Notes under the pieces: model-generated
Databases searched by the model: none
Seen by the model: the letters and a program-made list of their open reading frames with translations, nothing else
What the model was told of the DNA's origin: nothing
In this document: in pieces, positions 48,728-53,542 of the stretch
How positions within the stretch are numbered: the stretch's first letter is position 1
Layout of the letters: each line of letters starts with the position of its first letter
Translations under genes and position numbers: made by a program
From: Polaribacter septentrionalilitoris
GTDB taxonomy: Bacteria > Bacteroidota > Bacteroidia > Flavobacteriales > Flavobacteriaceae
Assembly (NCBI RefSeq): GCF_009832745.1
Contig: NZ_VRMJ01000041.1
Location: 191,001 to 255,000 of the forward strand
Length of the DNA: 64,000 bases
Direction of reading: 5' to 3'

Positions 48728-49486
48728 TTACCTCGTAAACACCAAATCAGTTTCAGTAGATAGTTCCTCAGAAAAACCATAACCCTCAACATTAAAACCT
48801 TTTAAATCTTCTATGGTTTCCACATTATTTTCTACAATATATCTAACCATATAACCACGTGCCATTTTTGCATACGTCATAATGGTTTTATATTGTCCGT
48901 TTTTAAAATCTTTAAAAACAGGTGTAATCATGGGTGCTTTTAATGCTTTTTTAGGTAATGCTTTAAAATATTCTGTACTCGCCAAGTTAATAAGTAACTC
49001 ATCATCTTCTAATTCTTCATTTAAAGATTTTGCTAAAGTATCGTCCCAAAACTTGTATAAATTATCTCTTCTTCCTACTTTTAAACGTGTTCCCATTTCT
49101 AAACGATAAGGCTGAATTAAATCTAAAGGTTTTAATAATCCATACAATCCAGAAAGAATTCGCAAGCGATCTTGTAAAAGAGGTAATTTTTCTTCTGCCA
49201 ATGAGTTGACATCAATTCCTTGAAAAACGGCACCTGTAAATGCATAAATTGCTTGTTTTGCGTTTTCTGGAGTAAAAGGTGTTGCCCAGTTTTGGTTGCG
49301 TTCGTAGTTTAATCTTGCCAAGTCATCAGAAATAGACATTAAATCTGATAGTTTATTTTTTGATAATGTTTTTAACTTTTTGTTCAGTTTTTCTGATTGG
49401 TCTAAGAAACGAGGTTGTGTGTGTAAATTTGTAGGTACTTTGCTTTCAAAGTCTAAAGATTTCGCTGGAGATATGATTATTTTCAT
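48728..49486 (-). CDS. yaaA: YaaA family peroxide-stress protein
   Basis: 252 residues from the Met at 49486, where the sequence begins MKIIISPAKSLDFES as in all YaaA proteins. A longer in-frame start exists but is rejected. Family motifs are present: YAFTGAVFQGID, ILSGLYGLLKPLD, RLEMGTRL and LINLASTEYFKA. In Escherichia coli YaaA limits oxidative damage by lowering free iron. It converges on sdaA and shares an intergenic region with the ECF sigma gene. Confidence 0.95.
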   Translation of the reverse strand: MKIIISPAKSLDFESKVPTNLHTQPRFLDQSEKLNKKLKTLSKNKLSDLMSISDDLARLNYERNQNWATPFTPENAKQAIYAFTGAVFQGIDVNSLAEEKLPLLQDRLRILSGLYGLLKPLDLIQPYRLEMGTRLKVGRRDNLYKFWDDTLAKSLNEELEDDELLINLASTEYFKALPKKALKAPMITPVFKDFKNGQYKTIMTYAKMARGYMVRYIVENNVETIEDLKGFNVEGYGFSEELSTETDLVFTR

Positions 49487-49628
49487 TAGAAATAAGGTGC
49501 TTTTATATTGTGATATAAAAATACAAATGATTTCAAAAACAGGTAAGTGATATCGCAAATTAATATCAATAAAACTATTTATAAAATTGATACAATCCTT
49601 AGAAATCAAATTAATTTTATAAATTCAT

Positions 49629-49656
49629 CAAACTAATGTGAAAAATTAGGGTCAAA
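49629..49656 (+). promoter_or_regulatory. ECF-type promoter motif before the sigma factor gene
   Basis: CAAACTA (49629-49635), 15 bases, then GTCAAA (49651-49656). It resembles the sigma-E-type pattern GGAACTT-N15-GTCTAA. It lies 25 bases before the TTG start of the sigma gene. Two similar motifs follow at 50225 and 50786. Confidence 0.6.
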
Positions 49657-49681
49657 AGAATAGAAACTAATAACCCAATAC

Positions 49682-50221
49682 TTGAGTAAAGACGCTGAAC
49701 TTGTAAAAAAGTTAAAAGATCCTACACTAAAAGATAAAGCTTTTAGTGAGTTGCTAGACGTCTATCAAGAGCGTTTGTATTGGCATATTAGAAAATTGGT
49801 AACTACACACGAAAACGCAGATGATGTCTTGCAAAACACCTTTGTAAGAGTGTACAAAAGCATCCATAAATTTGAGGAAAAAAGTACATTACATACTTGG
49901 ATGTATAGAATTGCTTATAATGAATCTATGCGTTTATTAGAGAAAAACAATAAGAAATCGTTTGATGATATTGATGAGATTTCAAGCAGTCATTTAGAAG
50001 TTTTATTTGAAGACGAATATTTTGATGGAAATGAAATTCAGCGAAAATTACAACAGATTATAGACGGATTAAAAGAAAAGCAAAAAAGGGTTTTTCAAAT
50101 GAAATATTTTGATGATTTGAGTTTTCGGCAGATATCCGAAATTTTAAGTATCTCAGAAAGCACATTAAAATCGACCTATTATACAGTGGTCAAAATTATA
50201 GAAGAAAAAATAGTGATATAA
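49682..50221 (+). CDS. ECF-type RNA polymerase sigma factor
   Basis: 179 residues from a TTG; no ATG is available nearby. Sigma region 2 covers about 25-95 (ENADDVLQNTFVRVYKSI, LHTWMYRIAYN) and region 4 about 125-175 (LKEKQKRVFQMKYFDDLSFR, ISEILSISESTLKS). The length and the lack of region 3 mark it as an ECF factor. The next gene encodes a single-pass protein typical of an anti-sigma. The motif upstream and two more downstream suggest autoregulation. Confidence 0.92.
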   Translation: MSKDAELVKKLKDPTLKDKAFSELLDVYQERLYWHIRKLVTTHENADDVLQNTFVRVYKSIHKFEEKSTLHTWMYRIAYNESMRLLEKNNKKSFDDIDEISSSHLEVLFEDEYFDGNEIQRKLQQIIDGLKEKQKRVFQMKYFDDLSFRQISEILSISESTLKSTYYTVVKIIEEKIVI

Positions 50222-50224
50222 ATC

Positions 50225-50252
50225 CAAACTATTTTTAAAAAGTAGGGTCTAA
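50225..50252 (+). promoter_or_regulatory. ECF-type promoter motif before the anti-sigma gene
   Basis: CAAACTA (50225-50231), 15 bases, then GTCTAA (50247-50252). The -10 is a perfect sigma-E-type match. It lies only 10 bases before the ATG, so the transcript would have a very short leader. Confidence 0.6.
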
Positions 50253-50262
50253 CTATTAAATT

Positions 50263-50778
50263 ATGGAAAAAACATCAGAAAATAACAACAAGAACAACTT
50301 TCTAAAAGAAGGTATGCAAAATGATGTTTCTAAACATCATAAAGATTATTTAGGAACAACAATTCCAGAAGGATACTTTGTAAAGTCGAAACTTTCGATT
50401 TTAGAGAAAATCAAAGAAGAAGAAGGAACTGAAGTTCCTAAAAAGAAAAAAATATTTTGGATGCATGCTAATTTTAAATATGCTGTAGCTGCATCTTTGG
50501 TTTTTATATTGAGTTTAACCATTTGGTTACAAAGTTCTAATACAAGTAATGAAACACAAGTTCAAGTAGAATTATTGTCTTTTAATGATGATGTTTTAAT
50601 CAACTCATTATTTGTAGAGGATGACGAATTAGAAGCGTATGCAAAGACTACTTTAATAAATGAAGTAGTGATAAAAGCAGAACTATCTGAACAAAAAATG
50701 GATGACTTAATCTTAGATTCTATGATTTTAGACGACTCATTATCAGATGGTAAGTTTATTGAAACATTAATTTTATAA
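50263..50778 (+). CDS. Probable anti-sigma factor, single-pass membrane protein
   Basis: 171 residues. Residues 1-65 are hydrophilic and presumably cytosolic. One membrane helix runs from about 72 to 91 (YAVAASLVFILSLTIWLQ). An acidic C-terminal part (95-171) is presumably periplasmic. No zinc HxxxCxxC motif is seen. The position directly after the ECF sigma gene and the topology support an anti-sigma role (inference from context). The sequence is not recognisable as a named family. Confidence 0.7.
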   Translation: MEKTSENNNKNNFLKEGMQNDVSKHHKDYLGTTIPEGYFVKSKLSILEKIKEEEGTEVPKKKKIFWMHANFKYAVAASLVFILSLTIWLQSSNTSNETQVQVELLSFNDDVLINSLFVEDDELEAYAKTTLINEVVIKAELSEQKMDDLILDSMILDDSLSDGKFIETLIL

Positions 50779-50785
50779 TTTTTTT

Positions 50786-50813
50786 CAAACTATTTTAGAA
50801 AATGCAGTTCTAA
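50786..50813 (+). promoter_or_regulatory. ECF-type promoter motif before the duplicated-domain lipoprotein
   Basis: CAAACTA (50786-50792), 15 bases, then TTCTAA (50808-50813), 35 bases before the ATG. The -10 differs at one base from GTCTAA. Confidence 0.55.
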
Positions 50814-50848
50814 GAAATAGAAACAATTATTAATTAAACATTTACATT

Positions 50849-51724
50849 ATGAAAACTTCAATTTCAAAAGAGAATATCTTAAAATCTAGTATTTTATTTT
50901 TCTCAATTACAGCGTTTGTTTTATCAGCTTTAGTATTTACCTCTTGTTCAGAATCAGAAGGATTAGAATCTTCTTCTAGTGACGAGGTATTAATATCAAA
51001 AATTGAAACAGCAGCAAAAGTAGCGGTATCTGAATCAGTTTTACCAGCAACAACTCAATCAAGTTTTAACGGAGAATTGGCTGACAGTACTCCTGAGTCC
51101 ATTCAATTCGCAGAGGGTTTAGGTTACAAAGTTTCATTATATACTTTTAATGAATCTAGAGAAGAATTTAATAGTGATGTCTATTTTTCTTTACAAGGAA
51201 GACAATTAGAGGATACAAATGAAAAAAGAGGAAAAAAGAGACGTAAATGTTTTGAGTTTGTTTTTCCAATTGATTTTATCATGCCAGATAATTCATCAAT
51301 CACTTTAAATAGTAAAGAAGACTGGACTTTAATTAGAGATTGGGTAAAAGCAAATCCAGATGCTACAGAACGTCCAGAATTGGTTTTTCCAATAGATGTT
51401 ACTTTAAAAGATGGCACAGTACAAACTTTGTTAGATAGAGATGAGTTAAAAGCAGTGAAAGAAGCATGTAGAAAAGGAAAAGATAAAAGAAAATGTTTTA
51501 GATTGGTATTGCCTGTAAGTTTCACTATGCCAGATGCTACTGTTATAACAGTAGATGAAAGAAAAGATTTTAGAGAAATTAGAAGATGGCACAAGGCAAA
51601 TCCAGATGCAACAGAAAGAGGAATGTTAAATTTTCCTGTTGACATTACTTATAAAGACGGAACTACTGCAACAATTAATGATGCAGATGAAATGAAAGCA
51701 GCCAAACAAAGCTGTAGAGATTAA
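50849..51724 (+). CDS. Lipoprotein with a duplicated ~82-residue domain
   Basis: 291 residues. A lipoprotein signal has its Cys at C33 (VFTSC). The C-terminal half consists of two copies of one domain, residues 133-207 and 215-289, with a period of 82. Each starts KCF, contains MPD and ANPDATER, and ends xAC or xSC, so the two Cys at each copy's ends (C134/C207 and C216/C289) may form disulfides. Each copy itself looks like two related halves (FPID... then FPxD...KDGT). The family is not recognised. It is probably an envelope protein under control of the ECF sigma factor two genes upstream. Confidence 0.78.
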   Translation: MKTSISKENILKSSILFFSITAFVLSALVFTSCSESEGLESSSSDEVLISKIETAAKVAVSESVLPATTQSSFNGELADSTPESIQFAEGLGYKVSLYTFNESREEFNSDVYFSLQGRQLEDTNEKRGKKRRKCFEFVFPIDFIMPDNSSITLNSKEDWTLIRDWVKANPDATERPELVFPIDVTLKDGTVQTLLDRDELKAVKEACRKGKDKRKCFRLVLPVSFTMPDATVITVDERKDFREIRRWHKANPDATERGMLNFPVDITYKDGTTATINDADEMKAAKQSCRD

Positions 51725-51767
51725 TTAAAATTTAGTATTTTAGTAGTTGAGCAAATTAAATAAAAAA

Positions 51768-52241
51768 ATGAAAATCAAAACCATCATTTTACAAGTTAGC
51801 TTTATGAGTTTGATGCTTTTTGGAGGTGCAATTTTTGCTCAGGACTCTAACTACAAGTTAATTACAAAAGAACTTACTGCTGCTCAAAAGACTTTGTTGC
51901 AAAAAGAACGAGAGGTCATGAAAGCAAATAGAGAAGCTTTTAAAGCCACATTAACTAATGAGCAATTGGCAATTCTAAAAGATAAAACAATCTCTAAAAA
52001 CGAAATTAGAAAACGGTTGGTATCTACATTCACCAAAACACAAAGAGAGTTGGTGAGAAATCAACAAGTTCGTTTAAGAAAAACAAGAGAGAGTTTTAGA
52101 AAAACCTTAACTAGAGAGCAAAGAAAAATGCTAAAAGAAAGGATAGATAAAATTAGAAAAGCGAAAGATAGAGGTGAGTTAAAAAATGGTCCTAGACAAG
52201 ACAATCCTAATGGAAGAAAAATAAGACCAAAAAGGAATTAA
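51768..52241 (+). CDS. Small basic helical Spy/CpxP-like periplasmic protein
   Basis: 157 residues from the ATG; a TTG seven codons earlier is also possible. A signal peptide ends near FAQD. The mature part is almost entirely helical, very basic, and has repeated LTxxQ-type motifs (LTAAQKTLL, LTNEQLAIL, LTREQRKML) characteristic of Spy/CpxP chaperones. It probably binds unfolded or outer-membrane proteins in the periplasm (inference). It lies 43 bases after the lipoprotein and nine bases before the barrel protein. Confidence 0.72.
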   Translation: MKIKTIILQVSFMSLMLFGGAIFAQDSNYKLITKELTAAQKTLLQKEREVMKANREAFKATLTNEQLAILKDKTISKNEIRKRLVSTFTKTQRELVRNQQVRLRKTRESFRKTLTREQRKMLKERIDKIRKAKDRGELKNGPRQDNPNGRKIRPKRN

Positions 52242-52250
52242 CGTACATTA

Positions 52251-53153
52251 ATGATTAATTTTTATCAAGAAATAAAAATAAAATTACAAGTTTTAGGGTT
52301 GCTATTGTTTACAATGGCAACCTCTTTTTGTTCTTATGCGCAAGATAATAGAAGTGATGAGGATATAGATATTATTCTAGATGATTTGTTTTTTAGCGAC
52401 CAACAATTTATAGACGAACTTATTGAAGGAGGAACCTCTTACAATTTCCTATACACCTCAATAGGGTACAGTACCAATACTTTTTTTTCAGGTAGAGATT
52501 CTGGTACAGATCAGTTTAATGTCATTCCACAAATTTCTTATTATCACTCTTCAGGATTTAACGCTAGTATTTCAGGGATTTACTATCAAAATTTTGACCC
52601 ACACTGGGATTTTACAAGTGTTTCTTTGGGGTACTTAAATACACTCGGAAAAAAAGATAATTTTATTTACAATGTTGGATATACCAAGTTTTTTTATGCT
52701 GATGATTTTGATGATTTTACGAATTCTATTGATGTAAGTTTTGGGGTTAGAAATAAAAAAAGAACTTTAGGAACAACACTTTCAGCATCTTATTTGTTTG
52801 GATCAGATGAATCTTACCAAATTGTTTCTAGTTCTTTTGCAAGAATAAATTTACTAAGAAAAGCTACATATGCCTTAAGGTTAAGGCCTACCATAAGTTT
52901 TATTGCAGCAAAACAAACCTATACTTTTTTGCAACGTTTTAGAACTAGACCTTTTTTAAGACCAGTTTCTTTAGAGGTTTTTAATGTTTTAAATACGCAG
53001 ATTTCTATTCCTTTATCATTTACAACAAAATCTTGGGATTTTGAACTAAGCTACTACTTAAATTTACCCAATGCAGTAGCTAACGAAAGTGATTTGTCAA
53101 ACACTAGTTTCTTTAATTTTTCTGTTGGTTATTTATTTGATTTGAGTAGATAA
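52251..53153 (+). CDS. Probable outer-membrane beta-barrel protein
   Basis: 300 residues. A signal peptide ends near SYAQ (about residue 31). The rest alternates polar and aromatic residues in short segments (YNFLYTSIGYSTNTFFSG, GFNASISGIYYQNF, SWDFELSYYLNLP) and ends in FNFSVGYLFDLSR, a barrel-type C-terminus. No named family is recognised. As the last gene of the ECF operon it is a likely target or structural partner of the Spy-like protein. Confidence 0.72.
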   Translation: MINFYQEIKIKLQVLGLLLFTMATSFCSYAQDNRSDEDIDIILDDLFFSDQQFIDELIEGGTSYNFLYTSIGYSTNTFFSGRDSGTDQFNVIPQISYYHSSGFNASISGIYYQNFDPHWDFTSVSLGYLNTLGKKDNFIYNVGYTKFFYADDFDDFTNSIDVSFGVRNKKRTLGTTLSASYLFGSDESYQIVSSSFARINLLRKATYALRLRPTISFIAAKQTYTFLQRFRTRPFLRPVSLEVFNVLNTQISIPLSFTTKSWDFELSYYLNLPNAVANESDLSNTSFFNFSVGYLFDLSR

Positions 53154-53182
53154 ATTTTAAATAAATATTTTTTGCATTTAAT

Positions 53183-53216
53183 TATTAATCGTAATATTGC
53201 AATAAATAAATTAATA
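53183..53216. promoter_or_regulatory. Candidate ArsR operator and -7 element
   Basis: A perfect 10-bp core TATTGCAATA (53195-53204) is flanked by perfect 7-bp outer arms TATTAAT (53183-53189) and ATTAATA (53210-53216), with 5-base unpaired steps. The dyad reaches the arsR ATG and overlaps TAATATTG, a one-mismatch -7 element. A TTTG lies 17 bases upstream. Confidence 0.5.
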
Positions 53217-53542
53217 TGGGTTTAACCAAGTCAGAAATATTTACCAAAGAACAAAATCAAATTGCAGAAATTGCAAAAGTTTTAGGACATCCTGCAAGAA
53301 TTGCCATTTTAGATTTTCTAATAAAATTACAATCGTGTGTTTGTGGAGACTTAGTAAAAGAAATTGGTTTGGCACAACCCACAATTTCTCAACACTTAAA
53401 AGAGTTGAAACGAGTAGGAATCATCAAAGGAAAAATAGAAGGAACTAGTGTTTGCTATTGTATTGATGAAGAAAACTGGAATCAAATTAAAGCGACTTTA
53501 AACCACTTTTTAAATAAAAATCCAACAGAAAACTGTTGTTAA
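53216..53542 (+). CDS. ArsR/SmtB family transcriptional regulator
   Basis: 108 residues, a winged-helix repressor. The metal-site Cys pair is in SCVCGDLV (about residues 40-45, the alpha3 CxC position), helix-turn-helix LAQPTISQHLKELKR is near 60, and the C-terminus ends in NCC, which may be an extra thiol ligand. It probably represses its own operon until arsenite binds. It is followed after 11 bases by an arsenate-reductase-like phosphatase. Confidence 0.9.
   Translation: MGLTKSEIFTKEQNQIAEIAKVLGHPARIAILDFLIKLQSCVCGDLVKEIGLAQPTISQHLKELKRVGIIKGKIEGTSVCYCIDEENWNQIKATLNHFLNKNPTENCC

Follow-up and report, generated by a model that had tools for sequence, protein, structure and literature searches.

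The consensus of E. coli sigma-E promoters is GGAACTT-N15-GTCTAA. The operon considered here, which lies in a 64,000-nucleotide stretch of DNA from Polaribacter septentrionalilitoris (the window), carries sites of the same layout, with AAC and GTC cores, and differs in that the -35 element reads CAAACTATTT and in that three such sites (P1, P2 and P3) stand in a single operon. An experimentally tested case of a sigma-dependent promoter of an anti-sigma gene is C. glutamicum SigH-RshA. There, going by the accessible part of the report, four housekeeping promoters serve sigH-rshA, rshA has its own promoter driven by the sigma factor of the operon, with starts 62 and 66 nt upstream of the gene, and an excess of anti-sigma factor together with shut-down has been proposed (PMC3489674). 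Compared with that account, our operon is similar in that its anti-sigma gene has a promoter of the class of its own sigma factor, here predicted from the motif, and different in that the sigma gene, too, has a self-type motif, that a third motif follows, that P2 is predicted to be near-leaderless and that, in relatives of the window operon, P2 overlaps the stop codon of the sigma gene.

In M. tuberculosis, as far as the accessible text of PMC10027907 goes, sigE and rseA are said not to share a transcript, an intergenic promoter allows differing expression ratios of the two, and the SigE-dependent promoter of sigE leads to a leaderless mRNA. The likeness to our operon is the promoter in the region between the sigma and the anti-sigma gene, which is a predicted one here; however, the leaderless mRNA of M. 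tuberculosis is that of the sigma factor, whereas in the window operon it is predicted for the anti-sigma factor. Closer in descent, F. psychrophilum, a member of the same bacterial family, has an ECF promoter motif named SM6, and there, too, an ECF/anti-sigma pair is under a promoter of its own class. Unlike the sites of the window operon, SM6 has a -10 box described as CGT, and the portion of the paper accessible to us lists one promoter, before the ECF gene (PMC9723704). Sigma-dependent promoters of anti-sigma genes are, in other words, already known (C. glutamicum rshA), and the P2 arrangement is a variant of them; a description of this arrangement was not found in a literature search, largely at the level of abstracts with open papers in addition.

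The operon and its motifs

The preliminary description had placed motifs of the form CAAACTA-N15-KTCWAA at 49629, 50225 and 50786, before an ECF sigma gene, an anti-sigma-like gene and a lipoprotein-like gene, respectively. The coordinates are correct, the spacer is exactly 15 bases in each, and the genes follow as claimed (Table 1). The genome-wide search that it had called for returned 4 exact matches in 3.45 Mb, 3 of them in this operon and the fourth at C17:68846, and the reversed control pattern gave none in the whole genome. Within the window, P1, P2 and P3 are the only exact matches; with up to one mismatch there are 6 matches against 1.33 expected, a number reached in 0 of 100 shuffles (maximum 5). 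Under a position matrix made from the full set of 189 sites, the three of the window among them, P1 scores 34.8, P2 28.1 and P3 26.6, the runner-up on either strand of the window being at 10.3. All three sites have the layout of an ECF-type promoter, namely an AAC core at -35, a GTC (also TTC) core at -10 and a fixed spacing. In E. coli RpoE promoters, according to the accessible part of the source, the C of GTC stands at -10 (PMC8103513). The +1 positions in Table 1 were predicted by this convention, with the C of GTC (or TTC) set at -10, so that the leader equals the distance between the -10 end and the start codon minus 6.

Table 1. Genes and predicted promoters of the operon (positions in the window)
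Feature	Position	Strand	Description
P1	49629..49656	+	CAAACTA-N15-GTCAAA; predicted ECF promoter of sigma gene; predicted +1 ~49663, leader ~19 nt
ECF sigma gene	49682..50221	+	TTG start, 179 aa, Sigma70 regions 2 and 4
P2	50225..50252	+	CAAACTA-N15-GTCTAA; predicted ECF promoter of anti-sigma gene; predicted +1 ~50259, leader ~4 nt
Anti-sigma-like gene	50263..50778	+	171 aa, single hydrophobic segment after conserved HKxxLGxxIPExYF stretch
P3	50786..50813	+	CAAACTA-N15-TTCTAA; predicted ECF promoter of effector part; predicted +1 ~50820, leader ~29 nt
Putative lipoprotein gene	50849..51724	+	291 aa, two similar internal halves; lipoprotein and repeat read by eye
Small CpxP/Spy-like gene	51768..52241	+	secreted-looking, helical, LTxxQ-like repeats; alternative TTG start 51747
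Last gene of putative operon	52251..53153	+	300 aa, perhaps outer membrane protein; location guessed from sequence

The sigma protein matches Sigma70_r2 and Sigma70_r4_2 above cut-off and TIGR02937 with 95.9 bits (cut-off 42.9), and with its 179 residues has only the sigma2 and sigma4 regions, as an ECF (group IV) sigma factor does. Among the best 80 of 119 related loci, its nearest sequences come from a metagenome-assembled genome labelled Bacteroidia (L007) and from Polaribacter (L005, L006). For the anti-sigma-like protein, no Pfam or NCBIfam family was found at cut-off, one anti-sigma model matching weakly (16.9 bits against a cut-off of 200); its AlphaFold2 model (pLDDT 63, pTM 0.20) was too poor for a structure search, and PDB sequence searches with alignments of this protein and of the CpxP-like one gave nothing meaningful. 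We infer that it acts as an anti-sigma factor from its position, its hydrophobic segment and its homology to another ECF-linked protein (see below).

Of the products further downstream, the lipoprotein-like protein, whose repeated halves read CFxFVFPIDF...KANPDATERP..., matches no family above cut-off, the small protein after it has no Pfam match at E 0.01, and no family was found for the last one. In its predicted fold the small protein may be CpxP/Spy-like: its top match is CpxP (3qzc_A; Z 5.7, rmsd 4.8, 107 aligned) and it matches Spy (3o39_A) at Z 5.0, with unrelated entries at 4.6, while the best Foldseek match has E 0.44 and one relative (L034) gives LTXXQ at E 0.3, below cut-off. An Rfam scan of 49300-53400 returned no family at threshold, and a sigma-70 promoter scan, whose model does not cover the Bacteroidetes type, found 16 sites against 18.5 in shuffles.

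Conservation in related operons

Conservation of the motifs in orthologous operons had been set beforehand as a test of the idea, and in related Flavobacteriaceae operons the idea held up. The comparison covered the best 80 of 119 loci with related sigma genes, plus the window, and used a matrix trained on P1 sites only, from 50 of the 55 non-Polaribacter loci, which was run on the sequence surrounding each gene boundary; dinucleotide shuffles supplied the threshold, taken at their 99.9% point. In Polaribacter-type loci, window included, P1 was found in 23/26, P2 in 25/26 and P3 in 24/24. In the non-Polaribacter loci the counts were 50/55 for P1, which is circular given the training of the matrix, and 32/54 for P2 and 37/50 for P3, which are not. 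At this strict threshold, then, P2 is missing in 22/54 and P3 in 13/50 of the non-Polaribacter loci, and P1 in 3/26 of the Polaribacter-type ones. It should be noted that the loci are related and the counts not independent, and that one locus (L048) has no P2 entry because it lies at a contig end, the site being present in other scans.

The sites have a direction and a fixed geometry. With the 189-site matrix there are 193 forward and 0 reverse matches within the operon stretches, the corresponding counts for 581 kb of flanking control sequence being 8 and 1; the spacer from AAACY to KTCWA is 16 bases long in 172 cases, with at most 10 cases at every other length between 11 and 22. P1 and P3 of one locus carry the same fifth base of the -35 element (AAACT or AAACC) in 55/57 (50 T/T and 5 C/C, with the P3 site entered by hand in two of the C/C loci). 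As for the -10 element, among sites scoring above 13, it is GTC in 23/23 P1 and 24/25 P2 sites of Polaribacter-type loci and TTC in 23/24 of their P3 sites; P3 likewise has TTC in 14/14 Algibacter/Maribacter-type loci and GTC in 11/11 Lutibacter/Flavivirga-type ones. The variant at P3 is constant within lineages and is perhaps a matter of promoter strength.

Some loci depart from the common arrangement. In three Polaribacter loci (L005, which is among the closest relatives of the window, L012 and L080) P1 was not found upstream of the sigma gene, P2 and P3 being intact; these may have lost sigma self-activation and kept the brake. In another Polaribacter locus (L053, 4501-5036), left out of the tree and of the distances below, the sigma gene is frameshifted and the -10 element of P2 altered to GTTTAA, with the P1 and P3 motifs kept. 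Two Tenacibaculum loci, L044 (-1897) and L047 (-1108), have no P1 beside the sigma gene and an identical motif 1.1-1.9 kb upstream, genes perhaps having been inserted between P1 and the sigma gene.

P2 between two genes

The position of P2 relative to the sigma gene varies between lineages. Counted from the end of the sigma stop codon, it starts 3 to 5 nt downstream in Polaribacter and 2 to 3 nt downstream in the Algibacter group. Most Maribacter-type loci, with the C-terminus QTN*, have it 11 nt upstream of that end, and Lutibacter/Flavivirga-type loci 27 nt upstream; in the latter, P2 is wholly within the sigma gene and GTCTAA is the last codon plus the stop. Sixteen loci of this last type have a P2 that scores above 13, and in 16/16 GTC precedes the stop, a codon that makes up 6.8% of their valine codons; the leucine codon supplying CTW is CTA or CTT in 16/16, as against 21% of leucine codons. 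Locus L062, tallied with them as the 17th, lacks both codons and shows no site by score. The residues encoded around the overlapping site vary (ELLTKNKV, QLLTKTQV, ELFSKNKV), and the overlapping placements read the motif in different frames, which indicates that selection acts on the DNA. Mapped onto the sigma tree, the placement classes require 9 changes, compared with a mean of 39 for shuffled labels.

Relative to the anti-sigma gene, P2 hardly moves. From the end of its -10 element to the anti-sigma start codon there are 6-13 nt in 49/56 loci (median 9.5; loci with P2 and without a complete anti-sigma frame are omitted). The seven exceptions are six Algibacter-group loci at 21-26 nt, so that P2 would not be near-leaderless in Algibacter/Mariniflexile-type operons, and one locus (L071) at 42 nt. 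The same distance has a median of 25 nt at P1 (n=72), never under 17, and of 37.5 nt at P3 (n=58), never under 26, with 0/72 and 0/58 at 13 nt or less; all of these distances were drawn from the best 80 of 119 related loci plus the window. Judged by them, the placement of P2 follows the anti-sigma gene and not the sigma gene. The assignment of the start codon bears on this: in 36/55 loci the stretch from P2 to the conserved LG-P-YF core of the anti-sigma protein holds a single start codon, in 19/55, the window included (second ATG 61 nt after P2), further downstream start codons are possible, and in 6/56 an in-frame start codon lies upstream of the end of P2. With P2 tied in this way to the anti-sigma start codon, we infer a near-leaderless mRNA, with a predicted leader of approximately 4 nt in the window.

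A paralogous system

The same genome holds a second ECF gene (C5:1322-1864), whose product is 50% identical to the window sigma factor, with an AACC...GTC site before the gene and the motif TAAACCTTT...GGTCTAA at its stop codon. This gene is present in 53/58 Polaribacter genomes (45/45 good ones) and, with one genome per genus of the family, in 97/110 genera. In 28/30 Polaribacter loci its P2 stands 6-9 nt from the anti-sigma start, and in each of these 28 TAAAC begins with the stop codon TAA; in the remaining two loci GTCTTA stands in place of the -10 element of P2. With the same strict pattern, P1 of this system was found in 15/30. In other genera (7 of the 97 were left out of this survey), P2 lies near the sigma stop in 74/89 (27/29 and 47/60) and exactly at the stop codon in 61 (24 and 37), the stop usually opening the -35 element (TAAACC); an ATG follows 5-11 nt beyond the site in 60/74 (25 and 35), and in 15/89 P2 was not found by the pattern, the patterns of the surveys differing slightly in the allowed spacer and last base. 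As a control, an equally loose pattern near the stop of unrelated reading frames gave 25/428, of which 1 has an ATG 5-13 nt further downstream. Such a stop-codon site was found at 0/13 of the other ECF genes of the genome that were examined, of 20 others above cut-off. The two anti-sigma proteins are homologous over 63 N-terminal columns (hhalign probability 98.2, E 4.6e-14).

Mechanism and alternative explanations

A promoter motif of the sigma factor's own class is present between the sigma and anti-sigma genes. Taken together with its two companions, it makes it highly probable, as far as the DNA alone can tell, that an ECF sigma/anti-sigma operon here carries a series of three promoters that share one specificity and are most likely used by its own sigma factor. 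Free sigma factor, once released from its inhibitor, would read P1, P2 and P3. Reading of P1 would yield sigma factor and all downstream gene products, a positive feedback, while P2 would yield extra anti-sigma factor, a negative feedback that would keep the inhibitor above the sigma factor and end the response. In particular, the inhibitor would rise with free sigma factor independently of sigma synthesis, such that the response stops after the signal. Finally, P3 would raise the lipoprotein-like, the CpxP/Spy-like and the putative outer membrane protein above the regulators. In this scheme, promoter function, recognition by the own sigma factor, the separate transcription of each gene that the preliminary description had proposed, and the two feedback roles are all predictions from the motifs, and in the living cell P2 and P3 may have little or no activity.

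Would the same sequences look different if P1 were the sole working promoter, the operon one transcript, and P2 and P3 mere remnants? The gaps after the first two genes are short (41 nt between sigma and anti-sigma genes, 70 nt between anti-sigma and lipoprotein genes) and a scan of the + strand found no terminator-like site between the first three genes, only a weak one inside the sigma gene, all of which agrees with a single transcript. Remnants, however, would hardly be as frequent as P1 in Polaribacter-type loci (P2 25/26, P3 24/24, P1 23/26), nor would the sequence of P2 be kept while its position shifts into the sigma gene, nor would P2 and P3 persist in L005, L012 and L080, where P1 was not found, and we regard this explanation as very unlikely. 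We give even less credence to the idea that a transcription factor binds the motifs and that they are not sigma promoter elements. The spacer of P2 in the window is, by eye, partly palindromic (CTATTTTTAAAAAGTAG), as such a site might be, but the matches in the operon face the genes, their half-sites and spacing are of the ECF promoter type, and scored with their own matrices the sites average 27 to 31 in the forward direction against -47 to -61 as reverse complements. A palindromic site was rejected on these own-matrix scores, by which the conserved pattern is non-palindromic.

Two further explanations leave the promoters in place and concern their reader and their spacing. The paralogous ECF sigma factor of the second operon might read P2, alone or alongside the window's own sigma factor, given that the motif of the second operon is close (AAACC for AAACT) and that one CpxP/Spy-like gene elsewhere in the genome has both types of site upstream; yet P1, P2 and P3 of the window all have AAACT, while P1 and P2 of the second operon mostly have AACC, and such cross-talk seems unlikely to us. 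A considerably stronger contender, which we would put only somewhat below an even chance, is that P2 owes its near-leaderless spacing to the short intergenic gap that it had to fit, the spacing having no role of its own. The sigma and anti-sigma genes are indeed close together in these operons. That said, the Polaribacter gap of approximately 41 nt could be longer, as the 50-55 nt of the Algibacter group demonstrate, and the distance stays at 6-13 nt across three placement classes and mostly at 5-11 nt in the paralogous system.

If the reading of three promoters used by the operon's own sigma factor is true, an inhibitor promoter of the same class in two paralogous systems would amount to wired-in negative feedback. 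Whether an ECF switch responds in a graded, pulsed or bistable way depends in part on the ratio of sigma to anti-sigma factor. An almost leaderless mRNA at a nearly constant distance is an unusual prediction in this group of bacteria, in which, going by the accessible part of PMC9723704, translation initiation departs from the Shine-Dalgarno pattern. In the overlap of stop codon and promoter element one stretch of DNA would serve two codes, the same bases ending the sigma protein and opening the -35 element (or carrying the -10 element) of the predicted anti-sigma promoter. As a tentative proposal, held with less than even confidence, Flavobacteriaceae may have a class of ECF systems in which a self-sigma promoter is welded to the sigma stop codon and gives a leaderless anti-sigma mRNA, the polycistronic P1 and leaderless P2 mRNAs being translated by different initiation routes, so that the strength of the brake would depend on the state of the ribosomes, independently of the amount of sigma factor.

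Similar sites elsewhere

An attempt to derive a regulon from the motif alone was rejected as mostly noise: AAACTW-N15-KTCWAA has 46 matches in the genome and 38 in the reversed control, and a loose pattern so barely above control is unreadable without gene context. A tighter pattern gave 76 matches in 58 Polaribacter genomes, compared with 52 in the control. Twenty match loci, chosen by eye and not blind, were read, two of them being of the window's own operon type. In the other 18, the site is followed by a CpxP/Spy-like gene in three (L104, L166 and, by flanking sequence only, L173), stands before YHYH lipoproteins in four, sulfatases in three, a large PF17517-type protein in three and a lipoprotein-like gene in one (L176); in four (L111, L155, L156, L174) there is no clear downstream gene, or the site falls within or borders a reading frame. 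Pfam was run on five of the proteins and assigned YHYH (L158), sulfatases (L164, L165) and PF17517 (L152), with no match for the L104 protein; the others were assigned by eye. The genes downstream of these sites are regulon candidates only.

In other Polaribacter genomes, the operon-like sites at L158, L168, L175, L179, L164, L165, L178, L152, L171 and L177 stand before YHYH lipoproteins, sulfatases and large PF17517-type proteins (four of the ten examined with Pfam), a hint of lineage-specific regulons of secreted proteins. At L104 (G000:C20:123357 and downstream), elsewhere in the genome of the window, the CpxP/Spy-like gene is preceded by two sites (1501-1527 and 1661-1688), the first like those of the window operon and the other like those of the second system. 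The first also occurs in G005, upstream of a similar gene, and in G046, where the gene was judged by flanking sequence only.
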